Shown here piece after piece: positions 54,915 to 63,655 of a stretch of 64,000 nt of DNA. The stretch is from Claveliimonas monacensis (GTDB taxonomy: Bacteria; Bacillota; Clostridia; Lachnospirales; Lachnospiraceae). How positions within the stretch are numbered: the first letter of the stretch is position 1; each line of letters begins with the position of its first letter. The DNA lies in contig NZ_JADCKL010000011.1 in the NCBI RefSeq assembly GCF_014982975.1, positions 33,405 to 97,404 on the forward strand, written 5' to 3'. The notes beneath the pieces were generated by a model. It saw nothing but the letters and a program-made list of their open reading frames with translations. It made no database searches and was not told the origin of the DNA. Position numbers and translations under genes: made by a program.

Positions 54915-56528
54915 ATGTTAGATTACAAGAGCATCATTATCAAACGGTACGCACTGGGCCTGAGCTACAAGGAACTGGCTGAAGAATTCAGTGCAAGCAA
55001 ATCCGGAATCAACGACTTCATCCGCGCTTTTGAAAGGTGTGAGAAGCTGTCGTATCCGCTTCCGGAAGGGATCACGAATTATGCAATCTATGAGTTGGTA
55101 TACGGCCATGAGCCAGGTACCAACAGACGGAATGACAGTTATGAACAACCCGATTTCCCAACTATCTTTAAACAGATGAATGAGCGGAAGAACATGACGC
55201 TCGTTTATTTGTGGAGCCGCTACCAGAAAGACTGTATAGCAAAAGCGGCAAAGCCATACCAGTATCGACAGTTCTGTGAACTGTATGGTCGCTGGTGCAG
55301 AGAGAACTGTGAAACCCTGCATATCCAGGCTGTAATCGGTCAGAAGATGGAAGTTGATTTTGCAGGTAAAACCTTTGAGTTGATCGATAAACTTACTGGC
55401 GAGATTACGACCATTGTTGTATTTGTAGCTGTTCTGCCCTATTCGCAGTACATCTATGCAGAAGGGATGGTATCTTCCTGTGAACCGCAATGGATTGAGG
55501 TCAATAACCACGCTCTCGCCTATTTTGGCGGCGTGCCTACGATTGTTGTTTGTGATAATTGTAAACAGGCAGTTTCCGCCAATAAAGACTGGATCGATCC
55601 GGATTTGAATAAGGATTATGCTGCATGGGCTGATCATAACCACACCGTGATACTGCCAGCCAAAGTCCGTAAACCGAAGTGGAAAAGCAGTGTGGAAAAC
55701 GCTGTAGGCATTCTTGAAAAAGGCTTTTTCCATGATTTAGAAGAAAACCGCTACTTTTCTCTGGAGCAGTTCAACAAAGATCTCTGGGAGAAACTGGATG
55801 CTTTGAACCATGAAAACTTCAAAAAGAAGGATTACAGCAGATACGATCAATGGCTGGAAGAACGCAGTGAGCTGCTTCCTCTTCCGGCTGTCCCCTACGA
55901 ATACATGGAAAGACGGACTGCAAAAGTATCTGCGGATTTTCATGTGCGCTTCGATAATGCTTATTACAGTGTGGATAAAGCATATCTGCACAAGAGTGTT
56001 CTGATTGCTGCCTCTGCAACAACAGTTAATATCTATTCCATGAAAGGCAAACTCATCGTCAGCTGGCGAAGGGCTTCCCGCAGGGGTGAATGGCTGACAG
56101 ATCCTGCACATCTGCCCGAAAGCTACAAACAGATGTCAGAATGGAATGCTACTTATTTTACCAGGAAAGCCATGACAGTAGGTCCGAATACGGTCAAAGT
56201 CATAGAACACATACTGAGAAGCCGTGAACATGAAGTTCAGACGTACCGCCTGTGTATAGGTATCCTCAACTACACAAAGAAGTACAGCAAGCTTGCTTTG
56301 GAAGATTGCTGCAAGCTGGCAATTGATACGAATCATATCTCGTATTCCTTTATTAAGAATTCAATTGCTGCCGTTGCTGAAGAAATCGGAAGTGCCGGTT
56401 TCAATACAAAGCTCAACGAAGAACGTAACAAAGGGGCGTTTGTCATGAGCCCGCATGCCGGGGACATTGACCGGCTTCTTTCCAAGAGCAGTAAACTTGC
56501 CGGGGAGGTGCGCGATGAAGAAGCTTGA
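54915..56528 (+). CDS. istA: IS21-family transposase IstA
   Basis: 537 residues: N-terminal HTH (YALGLSYKELAEEFSASKSG), integrase core VIGQKMEVDFAGKTFELIDK (first Asp), VVCDNCKQAV (second Asp) and WKSSVENAVGILEKGFFHDL (Glu), then the DUF4158-like end LPAVPYEYMERRTAKVSADF. All catalytic residues appear present. AAGGAGG precedes the ATG. Confidence 0.93.
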   Translation: MLDYKSIIIKRYALGLSYKELAEEFSASKSGINDFIRAFERCEKLSYPLPEGITNYAIYELVYGHEPGTNRRNDSYEQPDFPTIFKQMNERKNMTLVYLWSRYQKDCIAKAAKPYQYRQFCELYGRWCRENCETLHIQAVIGQKMEVDFAGKTFELIDKLTGEITTIVVFVAVLPYSQYIYAEGMVSSCEPQWIEVNNHALAYFGGVPTIVVCDNCKQAVSANKDWIDPDLNKDYAAWADHNHTVILPAKVRKPKWKSSVENAVGILEKGFFHDLEENRYFSLEQFNKDLWEKLDALNHENFKKKDYSRYDQWLEERSELLPLPAVPYEYMERRTAKVSADFHVRFDNAYYSVDKAYLHKSVLIAASATTVNIYSMKGKLIVSWRRASRRGEWLTDPAHLPESYKQMSEWNATYFTRKAMTVGPNTVKVIEHILRSREHEVQTYRLCIGILNYTKKYSKLALEDCCKLAIDTNHISYSFIKNSIAAVAEEIGSAGFNTKLNEERNKGAFVMSPHAGDIDRLLSKSSKLAGEVRDEEA

Positions 56529-57252
56529 TCGAATCAATGAACTTGTAGATGAGCTCAATGAACTGAAGCTTGGATGTATGGCCGCTTCGCTTGATTCGCT
56601 GTATCACTCGAAATCCTTTGATGAGTTGGATGCCGTGTCATTGCTAGAGCAGGTGATCGGACCGGAATACCAGAACAAAACATCGCAGAGATTTCAGAAC
56701 AGACTGAAACGGGCGCATCTTGCAGGAGGACCTCAATCATTGGATAAGTGTAAAGATTCTACAGAAAGGGTCTACCTACCTTCCGATATCAACGCTACGC
56801 TGTCATCGCTGGATTTTATCCGTGAAGGTCTCAACGTCTGTATTCTCGGCCCCTCCGACAGCGGAAAATCGTATCTGGCCAAAGCACTTGGAATACAGGC
56901 CTGCCTGAATTACAGAGCAATGTATCACCACTGTGAAGAATTCCTTGAAACGATGGTTGCCCTGAAACAGGCTGACTATTCGAAATATCAGAAGAAGGTA
57001 CGCTTCTACTTGAAGCTGGATCTGCTGATACTGGATGATTTCCTGCTTCACACCATAACAGATGAACGCGAGATCAAAGTTCTCTTTGAAGTCATGGAAA
57101 AACGCAGTGAATTGTCAAGGTGCACGATTGTATGCTCTCAGAGAGAGCCGAACAGCTGGGCATCGATGATCCTCAATGACGAGGTATCAGCCAATGCGAT
57201 ACTGAAACGGGCAACGAAGCACTATACCGTAGTGATCCAGCCCAGGAACTAA
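56515..57252 (+). CDS. istB: IS21-family helper ATPase IstB
   Basis: 245 residues: Walker A ILGPSDSGKSYLAKALG, Walker B LLILDDFLLHTI, and sensor TIVCSQREPNSW. It is a DnaA/DnaC-like AAA+ regulator of transposition. ATG 56515 overlaps istA by 14 bases in another frame. Confidence 0.93.
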   Translation: MKKLDRINELVDELNELKLGCMAASLDSLYHSKSFDELDAVSLLEQVIGPEYQNKTSQRFQNRLKRAHLAGGPQSLDKCKDSTERVYLPSDINATLSSLDFIREGLNVCILGPSDSGKSYLAKALGIQACLNYRAMYHHCEEFLETMVALKQADYSKYQKKVRFYLKLDLLILDDFLLHTITDEREIKVLFEVMEKRSELSRCTIVCSQREPNSWASMILNDEVSANAILKRATKHYTVVIQPRN

Positions 57253-58715: not shown

Positions 58716-58724
58716 TGGTATACT
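58716..58724 (+). promoter_or_regulatory. extended -10 promoter element pointing into the cassette
   Basis: TGGTATACT is a consensus-like extended -10; the -35 (TAGCAA, 17 bases upstream) is weak. Transcription would start near 58731 and cross the left 17-bp repeat into whichever gene lies inside. Confidence 0.45.
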
Positions 58725-58734
58725 ATGCAATAAA

Positions 58735-58751
58735 GATAATACCCTATTATC
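58735..58751 (+). repeat. left 17-bp inverted repeat (GATAATACCCTATTATC)
   Basis: Exact reverse complement of 62643-62659. Each copy is itself a 7-bp palindrome (GATAATA/TATTATC) around a 3-base centre, CCC here and GGG on the right, the shape of a small tyrosine-recombinase crossover site. Alternatively an operator for a shared regulator. Confidence 0.85.
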
Positions 58752-58846
58752 TATATAAAACTACTAGTGTTATAACTTGTTTGCCATCCTTTTTAATTAT
58801 TGGATAAAAATCAAAAGTCTGTAACGATTTAGAAAGGAGCATTAGC

Positions 58847-59938
58847 GTGGAACGTTTAGATATATATGAATATGCAAATAAGAATCTTCTAGATTATTCA
58901 GGGCAGGATAGTACCTCTAATTTAATTAAAGAATATGCTATTTATGGTCTCTACAATTTGCTATCTGCAATAAATGAAATTGGTGGGTCTGTAGAAAACA
59001 CAAGATTAATAGCACTTCCAGATTTCACATTCTCGCGAAATGAGCATCGATGGCGAGATGGTTATCCATATGGTAGTATTATATCCATGGATACAAACAA
59101 TATTCCTTTTATGCCTTTAGGGTTCCGTCCTAACTGTTGTGGTATTACTATGTGTAAACTCTCAGGAGGAAAAATAAATCCAAATGAGATTTTAGAAAAG
59201 AGAGAAAGGCTTTCCACGCTCTTCCCAGATTTAAGCAAAGATGATTTGAACAGAGGGAATCATTTTATAGGAATATATTATGATAAAGAGAATTCCGAAT
59301 ATTATTCTATAATCCATGGTTCATTTAGTTTTGTAAAATCTGGTTATCAATCTCTACCAGGCCTGTATACTGATAAAACAAAGTATTGGGATAATAAAAA
59401 GCATACATATCGTACTCCATATACAAAGTTTGAGTATCTAATAGATGATGCAGCCATCGAATATTATAATGCTTTTAAAGCATATGATAAAATAACAAAG
59501 AAGAATCGTGAAAAAATAGCTGAATTCCTTTTTGAAGGATGCAATATTATTTTTAATGAAACCCATGAAGGATTGTTCAATGAACATACTATTATTTTAG
59601 GAGCCTATGTAATGAACCATCCTTTTTCTTGCCCCATAATGCTTTCATCTGAAACGAACTTACCTATTGTAGAAATAAATAAGATTATAAGTGATTTAGG
59701 TTTTTATGCCTGTCCGCATGGAGGTGGCTATTATCTGACTAATATGAAGGATGGTCATTACAATAGTCAAAAATCAGTATACGAAATTACATACACAAAT
59801 AATGCAAAGCTGATAACAACAGATATCAGAAATCTAATTTATACATATCGCACTAACACTGATAATGTATGGATAAACACTTTTAATTTGGGACGATATA
59901 CAAAAAAATTACAAACTATTTACAATTTTAAATTATAA
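58847..59938 (+). CDS. divergent RtcB-like protein (putative RNA ligase-fold)
   Basis: 363 residues from GTG 58847 (AAAGGAG, 7 bases). Motifs follow RtcB order: IALPDFT (57-61; RtcB MPDVH), YPYGSIISMD (pIGtVia), IPFMPLGFRPNCCGITM (IPxxVGxDIxCGM; the Asp is lost, Cys97/98 kept), NRGNHFIGIYYDKE (GGGNHFIE; His139), SIIHGSF (HSGSR; His157), FNETHEG (HN; Asn237/His240), HTIILGAY (HRKGA) and CPHGGGYY (SHGAGR, the guanylylated His; His291). At least one metal ligand and the KGA/GR basic residues are missing, so ligase activity is uncertain. It converges on the STAND gene, sharing TTATAA at the ends. Confidence 0.5.
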   Translation: MERLDIYEYANKNLLDYSGQDSTSNLIKEYAIYGLYNLLSAINEIGGSVENTRLIALPDFTFSRNEHRWRDGYPYGSIISMDTNNIPFMPLGFRPNCCGITMCKLSGGKINPNEILEKRERLSTLFPDLSKDDLNRGNHFIGIYYDKENSEYYSIIHGSFSFVKSGYQSLPGLYTDKTKYWDNKKHTYRTPYTKFEYLIDDAAIEYYNAFKAYDKITKKNREKIAEFLFEGCNIIFNETHEGLFNEHTIILGAYVMNHPFSCPIMLSSETNLPIVEINKIISDLGFYACPHGGGYYLTNMKDGHYNSQKSVYEITYTNNAKLITTDIRNLIYTYRTNTDNVWINTFNLGRYTKKLQTIYNFKL

Positions 59939-62575
59939 GAGCAATAGCAATTCTTGCGACAGCGATTCACCTTCGCTAAAAAATCGATCAAGTCTGTTTT
60001 TATTGATTCTAGAAAAAACAATAGGTTCTAAATTCCTTTTATAATCGGTTTGCTCTTCAGATAATTTGAGAGCAGCCGATTCATATGCACTCGAGATGGA
60101 ATTATACAACAATGTCAGTCCATATTCCATGCATAGTTTTTTTAATACTTTTAACCGGTGAACCAATGTATACGTTTTAGCAGGATAAATGCATTTTTTA
60201 ATAATATCCGTTGCTTTGTCTGGCTGTTTTTGTATAAGATAAACTTTAGATAGAACCAGACCTGTTGCAATAATTTCTTTATCAAGGCCGAGCTCTTTTG
60301 CTAAAGCGAAAGATTTTTCAGCCCATATTATAGCTTCATCATATTGATCCTCATTCATATAAATTTGAGCACGCAACTTGTATGAAAAAACAAGCCCTCT
60401 TTGTGCATTTAACGATTCTTTTATTTCTATGCTCTTATTATTTTCTTCATGAGCCAACGCTGTGTTTCCCAGACCGTTATAGCATTTAGCCATCCGAAAA
60501 TGTGCGAAGGCTTGTCTCTTAGCACTTACAAAGTATTTACTCTTTAATAGCTGTTCTAGAGATTTTTGAGCCGATTTATACATCCCTAATTTTTCTTCTA
60601 TAATACATATGCGATGAAGTGCTTTAATACAGAGATCAGATAATGAATTACTAAAAGCCATATTATAGATAAAATAATAAATTTCTGTAGCAGTTTTTAA
60701 GTCGCCCTGAATATAGTACGTTCTTCCTATTATGAATAAAATTTGCAAATATATTTTCAACGGATATGCTTGGATATCCTCAAAGTTGTTCCAAAACATA
60801 TTGAAAATTTTATCAAACATACATTTAAAATATAAATATCTGTATTTTAAATATTCCCTTAAGTAGAAATACTCGCTTTGCGAATTCACCTTCATTTCTG
60901 TAATATCTAAATACATCCCCAACAAATCATAATCTGCCCTTCGCTCCACAAGCACCATTTTTTTAATAATAAAGTCCATTTGGCCAAAAGATTCGTTCTC
61001 TTCTGCTTTTTTTATAAACTCAAAAAGCATTACATCGAATCCCTGCTTTATTAAATAATCAAAATATTGATTTAACTTTTCATGAATTTGGTCATGCATT
61101 CCATAGGATAGATAGGCATAGAGAAGATCAATAATTAATATTGGTTCCTGGGAAGAACATTCTTCTATAATCAAAAACGCTTTTGCATTCTTAAGAGAAA
61201 ACGATTTTTTTATTATGTCTTTAAATCTATCGTGGAGCGCTAAAGTTTCCCCTTCACTTTTTGCAATTCTTCTGCGCTCTAATTGCTTAGATGCCTCATA
61301 ATAATTATTATATATTATTTTTTTGGGTAATGGGATTCGGCTAATAACCAATGCAATAAGTAATTCTTTCTCTGTTTCAGATAAATAATCTAGTAACCTC
61401 TCAAATGTTTGCTCAATATTATTGACATAAATCAAATCCTCTGATTTTGGCATCACCTCAGCTAATGCAGGAAATCCTTGACTTTTTTGAACTATAATAT
61501 CAAGTAATTCATCAGAAATCTTCGCATTAGAATGCTTAGCAATTTGTTTTATATACTTATCTTCAAGTGGCGTGATTTCCACATACTCAATTTTGCTACG
61601 AATTTTAACTTTTGAAATGTCAAATATATTAAACCAACCTAAAAAATAGCACCGGCAGTTATCGTTTTGAATAAGATGATACAGCAACTCTAAGTAAGTG
61701 TCGTTATCTAAACGGCACTTATGAATGTCGTCAATAAAAAAAATGGGGTTATATATATTAATTATTGAAGTTAGTATGTTAATCAATTGATTAGTAATAT
61801 AATTCCCGTGATTTTCCAGATAATCGTTTAAATAACAGTCATTAAAATTGGCTTTAAAAAACATACCTAATGATTCTAAAAAGCATCTCGTTTGATACTG
61901 ATTTTCATTTTCTGAAATTATTCTATGCCAAAAAATTTTATATCCTTTTTCATAATAAAATTTTGCTGTAACTTTCGCTAATTGTGTTTTCCCTAATCCA
62001 GAGGCCCCAGTTATATAATAATTGAAAATCGATTTGTTTTTTAATTCTTTGCGCTCTTTTGATCGATCTAACATATAATGACTTGATAACAAAATTTTCG
62101 AATCATACTCTAAATTTTTGAAAATTTCACTGTTTTTATGTATAGAATATTCAATTTTTGCTTTAAGTAATGCAAAAACAGAATCATCACCAGATTTAAG
62201 AGCATTCTTATATTTTGTAATACTTTCCTTTTCCTCGTAAAGTACACACAAATTATATTGGGTAGCTATTTTATCAATATAATCTTTTGCAGAAGGGGTT
62301 AAATGACTTGATACCCATAAATAATATAAATCAGGTCTATTCGCTACTGCCCAATTAATTGAACTAACTATATCTTTTTGAGATACTGCTGAATCATAAT
62401 TTTTACATTCCACAATTACTTGCTTACTTTGCCCATGAATATTGTATTGAACCATAATATCCCGTCCGCGATCGCTGCCGCCATAATAAAATTCTAAGGA
62501 ATGTGGTATTGTATGATATAGAATTTCATATACAAGCATTTCAAAATCATTGCCTTTTGATAAATTGTTGTTCAT
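59933..62575 (-). CDS. Mrr-like nuclease / STAND NTPase / TPR protein (defence-type)
   Basis: About 880 residues from ATG 62575 (GGAGG at 5 bases). Residues ~8-110 are an Mrr-like PD-(D/E)XK nuclease: GNDFEMLVYEIL, SDRGRDI (Asp39), VIVECKN (Glu56, Lys58). A STAND-type NTPase follows: Walker A YITGASGLGKTQLAKVT (190-197), Walker B PIFFIDDIHKC, and winged-helix region. The C-terminal ~350 residues are TPR-like (AFAHFRMAKCYNGLGNTALA, YDEAIIWAEKSFALAKELGL). This is the layout of Avs-type antiphage sensors: TPR recognises, NTPase oligomerises, nuclease acts. All catalytic residues appear intact. Confidence 0.8.
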   Translation of the reverse strand: MNNNLSKGNDFEMLVYEILYHTIPHSLEFYYGGSDRGRDIMVQYNIHGQSKQVIVECKNYDSAVSQKDIVSSINWAVANRPDLYYLWVSSHLTPSAKDYIDKIATQYNLCVLYEEKESITKYKNALKSGDDSVFALLKAKIEYSIHKNSEIFKNLEYDSKILLSSHYMLDRSKERKELKNKSIFNYYITGASGLGKTQLAKVTAKFYYEKGYKIFWHRIISENENQYQTRCFLESLGMFFKANFNDCYLNDYLENHGNYITNQLINILTSIINIYNPIFFIDDIHKCRLDNDTYLELLYHLIQNDNCRCYFLGWFNIFDISKVKIRSKIEYVEITPLEDKYIKQIAKHSNAKISDELLDIIVQKSQGFPALAEVMPKSEDLIYVNNIEQTFERLLDYLSETEKELLIALVISRIPLPKKIIYNNYYEASKQLERRRIAKSEGETLALHDRFKDIIKKSFSLKNAKAFLIIEECSSQEPILIIDLLYAYLSYGMHDQIHEKLNQYFDYLIKQGFDVMLFEFIKKAEENESFGQMDFIIKKMVLVERRADYDLLGMYLDITEMKVNSQSEYFYLREYLKYRYLYFKCMFDKIFNMFWNNFEDIQAYPLKIYLQILFIIGRTYYIQGDLKTATEIYYFIYNMAFSNSLSDLCIKALHRICIIEEKLGMYKSAQKSLEQLLKSKYFVSAKRQAFAHFRMAKCYNGLGNTALAHEENNKSIEIKESLNAQRGLVFSYKLRAQIYMNEDQYDEAIIWAEKSFALAKELGLDKEIIATGLVLSKVYLIQKQPDKATDIIKKCIYPAKTYTLVHRLKVLKKLCMEYGLTLLYNSISSAYESAALKLSEEQTDYKRNLEPIVFSRINKNRLDRFFSEGESLSQELLLLL

Positions 62576-62642
62576 CTTTTCCTCCATGGGCATTGAGTAA
62601 GTCACAATAGTATAGTACATCATTTGTAATCTAATGCTAAAG

Positions 62643-62659
62643 GATAATAGGGTATTATC
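62643..62659 (-). repeat. right 17-bp inverted repeat (GATAATAGGGTATTATC)
   Basis: Exact reverse complement of the left repeat, extended palindromically to AGGATAATA/TATTATCCT. It lies 68 bases upstream of the STAND start codon and 70 bases upstream of the recombinase ATG. Confidence 0.85.
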
Positions 62660-62728
62660 CTGAAGACGAGGTGAGATCCGTATGGAAATGTGCTACACTA
62701 CCGAAAAAAAGGTGTGGAGGACAAAACT

Positions 62729-63655
62729 ATGAATTATAAGGAACAGGTGAAGAAATATCTTGATTATTGTGAATTTAGAAAAGAGTTGGACTGGAATACC
62801 TTGAAGGCCTACAGAATTGATTTAAAACAATTCTTTGACTATACCCAGGAAGACGTGCCAGACAAAAAGAAAATAGAAGAGTACATAACAGAATTGCATA
62901 AAAAATATAAGCAAAAAACGATAAAGCGTAAAATAGCGTCTATCAAAGCGTATTACAATTATTTAGAAGAGTGTGAGATCATTGACGATAGCCCCTTTAG
63001 AAAAATAAGAGTAAAATTTAAGGAAACGACAGTTTTACCTAGAGTAATCCCGCGAGAAGAAATTGAACTTCTCTTGAATTATATGTATTCGCGTGAAAAT
63101 GTAAATAGTGATAAAACTTACAAATACTGGCTGCGAGATATAGCTGTAGTAGAAACGTTGTTTGCTACCGGAGCCAGAGTATATGAAATATCGCATATAA
63201 AATTAGACTGCATAAATTTAAACACAGGTTTAATAAAAATTATGGGTAAAGGGGGAAAAGAAAGATACATTCAAGTTGCAGCTCCGGAAATTTTGGATAT
63301 TCTAAAAAAATATTATGAATATAATTCTGAGGCAATCAAAACAAGTGGATTTTTCTTTGTGAATAGTCGCGGGAATAGGTATACAGAACAATCAATTAGG
63401 TTAATGTTAAAAAAATATACTAAATTGGCTGGCATTAAAAGAAATATTACTCCACATATGTTTCGACATTCGTTCGCAACATATTTGATTGAAGAGGAGG
63501 TGGATGTGACTTACGTACAACGGATCTTGGGACATAGCTCGATTAAAACTACCCAGATATATATACATATTGCAGCCAAAAAGCAAGCAGAAATTTTAAG
63601 AGAAAAGCATCCTAGAAAACTAATGAATATAGTTCGTATGGCTCGAGCTGCATAG
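62729..63655 (+). CDS. tyrosine recombinase (XerC/D-like)
   Basis: 308 residues from ATG 62729 (GGAGG at 8 bases). N-terminal SAM-like core-binding domain (YLDYCEFRKELDWNTLKAYR) and catalytic domain with Arg150 (ATGARVYEI), Lys174 (GKGGKERY), His243 and Arg246 (PHMFRHSFATY), His269 (LGHSSIKTTQ) and Tyr278. All six catalytic residues are present. Size and motifs fit the Xer-like recombinases that invert promoters or swap gene segments. A TGCTACACT extended -10 lies just inside the 5' non-coding DNA. It starts next to the right inverted repeat and probably acts on that pair. Confidence 0.9.
   Translation: MNYKEQVKKYLDYCEFRKELDWNTLKAYRIDLKQFFDYTQEDVPDKKKIEEYITELHKKYKQKTIKRKIASIKAYYNYLEECEIIDDSPFRKIRVKFKETTVLPRVIPREEIELLLNYMYSRENVNSDKTYKYWLRDIAVVETLFATGARVYEISHIKLDCINLNTGLIKIMGKGGKERYIQVAAPEILDILKKYYEYNSEAIKTSGFFFVNSRGNRYTEQSIRLMLKKYTKLAGIKRNITPHMFRHSFATYLIEEEVDVTYVQRILGHSSIKTTQIYIHIAAKKQAEILREKHPRKLMNIVRMARAA

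Follow-up and report, generated by a model that had tools for sequence, protein, structure and literature searches.

The G segment of phage Mu and the C segment of phage P1, inverted by Gin and Cin, respectively, are the established inversion switches between convergent alternatives: they span about 3 kb and hold two convergent gene sets between inverted sites, each transcribed in its turn from a promoter outside, with the invertase gene adjacent. Integrons combine a tyrosine recombinase next to a promoter with exchangeable gene cassettes. Here, we describe a locus of Claveliimonas monacensis (Lachnospiraceae), contained in a stretch of 64,000 nucleotides (assembly GCF_014982975.1, contig NZ_JADCKL010000011.1, positions 33,405 to 97,404 of the forward strand; hereafter the window), in which inverted 17-bp repeats enclose two convergent genes beside a tyrosine recombinase gene. 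The locus resembles the Mu and P1 segments in its convergent genes between inverted sites and its adjacent recombinase gene, whereas those segments use serine recombinases and carry alternative versions of tail-fibre genes, and here a tyrosine recombinase accompanies two unrelated, partner-like genes. Unlike integrons, it has inverted site pairs and a single cassette of two convergent units, whose orientation matters. A tyrosine-recombinase switch is also already known from the type I restriction-modification locus of Streptococcus pneumoniae, where PsrA inverts DNA within the hsdS genes (PMC7096588). There, too, an immune-type locus contains inverted repeats and a tyrosine recombinase; here, by contrast, whole genes of a pair appear to be turned and replaced. 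In gut Clostridia, linked tyrosine recombinases are associated with phase-variable invertons, the examples with coordinates being about 0.2-0.6 kb long, and the available portion of that work describes no exchangeable gene pairs, in contrast to those seen here (PMC11892184). In the open-licence literature, which excludes subscription papers and preprints, we found no description of defence gene pairs inverted or exchanged by a tyrosine recombinase.

In the proposed model, the tyrosine recombinase would flip the whole two-gene segment between the inverted 17-bp sites, so that either a gene for a protein of predicted RtcB fold or one for an Mrr-STAND-like protein would be read from what is likely a single promoter outside the left site. 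Each site comprises two GATAA arms around a 7-bp centre that would serve as an address. In relatives, the same frame receives other gene pairs as well, which would make it both a switch and an exchange platform for immune-type gene pairs. To this reading as a whole, a flippable either/or two-gene switch doubling as a cassette-exchange platform, we give a probability of about 0.82.

The inverted sites and the distribution of the frame

An earlier inspection of the window without database searches (the sequence-only reading) had reported exact 17-bp inverted repeats enclosing two convergent genes and an intact tyrosine recombinase beside the right repeat. Both are confirmed: the repeats lie at 58735-58751 and 62643-62659, and all six catalytic residues of the recombinase (R149, K176, H242, R245, H268 and Y277, in roles that we presume) are present. 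The features of the locus, in window coordinates, are:

58716-58724, plus strand: predicted outside promoter, an extended -10 element (TGG-TATACT) read from the sequence and pointing into the cassette
58735-58751, plus strand: left recombination site, GATAA-TACCCTA-TTATC, predicted from the repeat and from comparison
58847-59938, plus strand: gene for a protein of predicted RtcB fold, 363 amino acids, on the promoter side in the assembled orientation
59933-62623, minus strand: gene for an Mrr nuclease - STAND-like NTPase - TPR protein, 896 amino acids from the first ATG, with a likely start at 62575 behind GGAGG
62643-62659, minus strand: right recombination site (predicted), an exact inverted copy with the same 7-bp centre
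62691-62699, plus strand: TGC-TACACT, spotted by eye, a possible extended -10 element of the recombinase gene
62732-63655, plus strand: tyrosine recombinase gene, 307 amino acids from ATG, with R-K-H-R-H-Y

The two 17-bp repeats are the only exact copies in the whole genome, and the window contig passes unbroken through both. For comparison, we fetched 31 relatives of the recombinase, giving 32 loci (numbered L; genomes are numbered G) together with the window. In many of them, the repeat recurs as GATAA-N7-TTATC near the recombinase, with an inverted copy some kilobases off. Exactly two perfect sites are found in 14 of the 32 loci and, in this unselected count made blind to the centre, N7 matches in the inverted register in 13 of the 14. 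When all 1024 five-base arms were scanned across the 32 loci for same-centre pairs 300-8000 bp apart, GATAA yielded inverted pairs in 13 loci but no direct pair in any locus; the other 1023 arms combined yielded inverted pairs in one locus, a result that excludes a chance origin of the pairs. In all, we gathered 20 site pairs, chosen for matching centres (the 13 loci, L021 with one arm mismatch and, from other genomes, L052, L062, L081, L083, L088 and L090); they have 12 different centres and frame 2.0-6.5 kb of DNA, with a recombinase on the same stretch for 16 pairs and on an adjoining contig for two (L081, L083). Strand exchange by tyrosine recombinases requires binding arms and a matching centre. 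Constant arms around a matching centre correspond to this requirement, whereas an operator would not need a matching centre, and the 7-bp centre is probably the crossover spacer. Because both sites of a locus share their centre while loci differ, the centre would act as an address.

Two further arrangements of sites were observed. In L013 (L089), two perfect sites with different centres flank the recombinase, and L088, from the same bin, is a site-to-site cassette with a third centre. In a second locus of G005 (L084-L087), the sites have a different centre and the stretches read show no recombinase; these sites may be served in trans.

The frame of inverted sites and recombinase recurs in Lachnospiraceae: 25 of the 31 relatives come from this family or from genera that we take to belong to it. 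Among 397 genomes of the family (one per species, many of them draft), the recombinase is found at E 1e-95 in 10, including the window's own, so the frame recurs yet is uncommon. The 31 relatives divide into 13 with a matching pair, 12 with a site but no matching partner in the stretch and six without an adjacent site. In 11 of the 12 unpartnered loci, no more than 3.8 kb of contig remains on the cassette side; in the twelfth, L034, the partner site is 62 kb away. L034 and L100 (G440, contig 1) show the same 17-bp site inverted 62 kb apart, with phage-like genes, as judged by eye, near one end, and a prophage may have entered a cassette there. Three of the six loci without an adjacent site (L025, L026, L041) fall in a supported clade near flagellin-type genes, L040 has a broken reading frame, and L022 and L036 remain; L041 has one site, 1.4 kb from the recombinase, and L025 is half masked, so that its sites cannot be judged. 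The clade (L026, L041, L055 and L057, together with L025) lies beside flagellin-type genes, four of its five loci carrying an NLEKLSSG motif and four of the five a nearby gene with SQCMIV-EE; it shows no matching GATAA pair and probably represents a flagellin switch that relies on recombinases of this family. The L022 recombinase is 84% identical to the window's over 254 residues, and its locus holds no GATAA-N7-TTATC and adjoins ketosynthase-type genes.

Depending on the locus, the recombinase gene reads away from the cassette, as in the window, or towards it. On the recombinase tree, which has long branches for L061 and L062 and from which L040 was dropped for its frame breaks, this layout requires 7 to 8 changes, at least two of them being forced by well-supported branches. 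A motif similar to TGC-TACACT is present in L014, L021 and L023 as well (by eye). The recombinase belongs to the Phage_integrase family (PF00589). Its scores fall below the curated cut-offs for XerD (232.1 against 329.6) and XerC (227.2 against 335.15), the recombinases of chromosome resolution, as well as for an integron integrase (TIGR02249, 89.9 against 265). The exact 17-mer of the window occurs in two stretches of a viral collection (L101, L102); a phage origin was rejected, this collection holding no close relative of the recombinase and only one 34% fragment. Genes for an IS21-type transposase and its IstB helper are located at 54915-57252 of the window, about 1.5 kb left of the cassette.

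Inversion and exchange of the framed DNA

The two orientations of one cassette are seen in L029 (Blautia sp. An81) and L030, a metagenome-assembled genome. Over 1365 bp that cover flank, recombinase and the complete site, the two are 99.93% identical. Past the site, L030 carries the other terminus of the L029 cassette, in minus-strand orientation and with 100% identity over 215 bp (site included), the junction being clean to the base. This related cassette is inverted between the two genomes; a third locus, L028, has the orientation of L029. The recombinase locus is 99.9% identical in L028, L029 and L030, which come from genomes labelled as three genera, and identity to L029 sets in some 262 bp upstream of the recombinase, as though the locus had been transferred as a unit. 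Within one genus, L015 and L052 have the same flanks and hold homologous but distant cassette proteins (39% and 26% identity) in opposite order.

Contig ends give indirect evidence in the same direction, as they fall at the points from which the two orientations would differ. In Blautia schinkii DSM 10518 (G435), the cassette is assembled separately as a site-to-site contig of 5204 bp; the flank contig extends beyond its site by exactly four bases, which are those common to both cassette ends. Contigs of G005 end at the same kind of divergence point, with three such bases in one locus and none in the other, and five of the 12 contigs with an unpartnered site stop no more than 60 bp past it into the cassette, where 0.047 would be expected. 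By extension, the window's own copy would invert too, and the adjacent recombinase would carry out the reaction.

Different cassettes occupy the space between matching flanks in three pairs of loci. L035 and L037 have flanks that are 96.4% and 91.7% identical exactly up to the sites and enclose unrelated cassettes. Outside the sites, L015 and L052 are 100% (268 bp) and 93.8% (2273 bp) identical, again up to the sites, whereas inside only 203 bp are alike, at 66.5% and on the minus strand. In L027 and L042, the stretches nearest the cassette are 72.8% and 82.6% identical, ending 18 to about 230 bp before the sites, and the cassettes differ. Conversely, the cassettes of L081 and L062 are 70.8% identical over 5.1 kb despite different centres. 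Exchange probably proceeds via recombination at the same sites, with site recombination and homologous recombination in the flanks both possible routes.

Cassette contents and the predicted outside promoter

Inward-reading genes start on the inner side of the site at 37 of the 40 cassette ends, so that the cassettes comprise two convergent units of one or two genes each. Their contents, given as the two units, are as follows:

Window: RtcB fold / Mrr-STAND
L021, L027 and L033 (L090 is homologous to L033): D-Ala-ligase-type ATP-grasp / STAND-like NTPase
L083: two ATP-grasps / 818-amino-acid protein without a match
L015 (similar in L037, L052, L088 and the broken second locus of G005): glycosyltransferase / Mrr-STAND
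L014 and L042: ATP-grasp-radical SAM / pentapeptide
L035 (L023 is similar, with its second gene in pieces): pentapeptide / aminotransferase
L017 and L029: ATP-grasp-like / TPR-like, both weak
L039: SIR2-STALD / TIR
L043: kinase-like / TIR
L081 (L062 by homology): GNAT-SHMT and dehydrogenase / STAND-like

The aminotransferase-type gene of L023 (4704-5862) is spread over several reading frames and looks broken. In L039, one protein matches ThsA (E 4e-182) and its partner matches a ThsB-type TIR protein (E 1.6e-15), with PDC-S66 scoring higher; by these matches, at least one anti-phage system of a known type occurs within the frame. Unlike the usual Thoeris genes (ThsA/ThsB), those of L039 are convergent and bracketed by inverted recombination sites. 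For the other cassettes, we infer a defence role. In a PADLOC scan of 22 cassette proteins, the L039 pair was well matched as a named system, five proteins were matched weakly or partly (the window Mrr-STAND protein to PDC-M58A, both L043 proteins, the L021 STAND-like protein to DpdH at E 2.6e-4 and the L015 STAND protein to mad8 at E 1.3e-4) and 15 gave no match. Neither window protein matched a Ths protein, so the window pair is not Thoeris.

The 363-amino-acid product of the left gene of the window has no Pfam match, and a sequence search of solved structures gave none either (best E 0.65). An alignment of 62 sequences yielded a confident predicted model (predicted local distance difference test, pLDDT, 93), whose best matches among solved structures are RtcB RNA ligases, and the product is accordingly predicted to be an RtcB-fold protein. 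Cys 97, Cys 98 and His 139, 157, 240 and 291 are invariant in the 62 sequences and may correspond to the metal and guanylate ligands of RtcB; the Pfam RtcB family matches none of the 62 at E 0.1. Two of the 397 family genomes encode the protein, the window's own and one with a weak match (E 5e-9) within a longer frame. The right-gene product has an Mrr nuclease domain, TPR repeats and a STAND match too weak to reach the cut-off.

In both layouts, inspection of 14 loci by eye showed, in several of them, an inward promoter lying outside one site and on the same strand as the recombinase. By promoter score, this side was the stronger in 13 of 16 loci in a first set (P 0.049) and in 18 of 21 once five loci had been added (Wilcoxon P 0.009; when the two loci sharing a flank are left out, 16 of 19 and P 0.02). 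All five loci outside the rule-forming set agree, G431 being nearly a tie. Leaders from site to gene start measure at most 46 nt at 21 of the 37 ends that have an inward gene, and eight of the 20 cassettes have such short leaders on both sides; these counts keep the automatic values for L029 (231 and 201 nt), which are probably wrong, as its starts lie at 45 and 36 nt. Such short leaders leave little room for promoters of the genes' own, and the likely arrangement is one outside promoter serving two genes that largely lack their own. With the predicted promoter outside the left site of the window, the assembled orientation would have the RtcB-fold gene switched on and the Mrr-STAND gene switched off, and the choice made at the promoter would render expression exclusive.

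Competing explanations and significance

The inversion proposed in the sequence-only reading draws support from the relatives, namely from the matching centres in 13 of 14 loci, the lack of direct pairs, the two orientations of L029/L030 and the contig breaks at sites. A number of observations weigh against a flippable either/or switch with exchangeable cassettes. Of the same cassette in opposite orientation, which the sequence-only reading had named as a thing to look for in relatives, one related case (L029/L030) was found; the window's own cassette was not seen turned round, and its contig shows no break at either site. The outside extended -10 promoter is supported by comparison (the 18 of 21 loci), whereas in the window alone the motif at 58716-58724 does not rise above chance in a plain scan. 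The promoter score is a simple home-made sigma-A score, the rule fails in L021, L023 and L062, and the window leaders of 95 and 67 nt could hold weak promoters. L013 has two perfect sites with different centres, the sole such case among the 14, the contigs of two of the 20 pairs (L088, L090) show no recombinase, three of the four cassette ends of L021 and L023 lack an inward gene of the expected length, and the six relatives without an adjacent site include L022, the nearest on the tree. Finally, Thoeris defence needs both proteins (PMC7272460), so strictly exclusive expression of ThsA and TIR in L039 would leave no defending state. A way out would be that the silent half is partly expressed, or that the split acts as a safety catch released after a flip or in cells with both orientations. 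We only tentatively entertain the larger idea of a gene-capture platform of a new kind, in which a tyrosine recombinase would use address-coded double sites to swap as well as flip convergent immune gene pairs and so keep two-part suicide-type systems, Thoeris among them, divided, with only one half transcribed at a time and the system armed only in just-flipped cells or with both orientations on sister chromosomes.

Residual expression of the silent half is the strongest rival. It holds that the sites serve chiefly for exchange, with inversion a by-product, and that both genes are expressed either way from weak promoters at or outside both sites, the pair forming one defence system. It shares the sites, the recombinase and inversion with the switch-and-exchange reading and differs in how the genes are read, so their odds overlap; taken by itself, we consider it rather unlikely. 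The three flank-matched locus pairs with different cassettes speak for it, as do the need of Thoeris for both proteins given the Thoeris-like pair of L039, convergent genes that start at both edges and are insensitive to orientation, and the resemblance of GATAAT within the site to a -10 element, whereas a promoter stronger on one side in 18 of 21 loci speaks against it, as does one identical cassette in both orientations, which exchange alone would not require. Strain mixtures or binning errors could also produce the breaks and opposite orientations: L028 and L030 are metagenome-assembled, so that one orientation of the L029/L030 pair depends on such a genome, and so are the broken-contig loci L013, L016, L018, L019 and L038. 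We judge this improbable, as L029 and L024/G435 are named strains, G435 showing the site-to-site contig, the L030 junction is clean, and a mixture holding both orientations would itself imply inversion. Inverted repeats that bracket genes beside a recombinase, with differing cassettes at the same place, would suit the terminal repeats of a two-gene transposon; this is very improbable with the recombinase outside the repeats, flanks that keep their site as the cassette changes and a cassette turned round in place. The alternative offered in the sequence-only reading, that the repeats are operators of a regulator common to both genes, fits the frequent operator layout of a palindrome upstream of each of two genes and nonetheless falls away almost entirely: the site occurs as inverted pairs at cassette ends, its centre varies among loci yet matches in inverted register in the 13 of 14 and never in direct pairs, and the enclosed DNA is inverted in one case and differs in others despite matching flanks.

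If the switch-and-exchange reading holds, a recognisable frame would allow new defence pairs in this family to be found by their frame instead of by their sequence. It also raises the question of why a two-protein system like Thoeris would sit at a position where flipping determines which of its halves is read.

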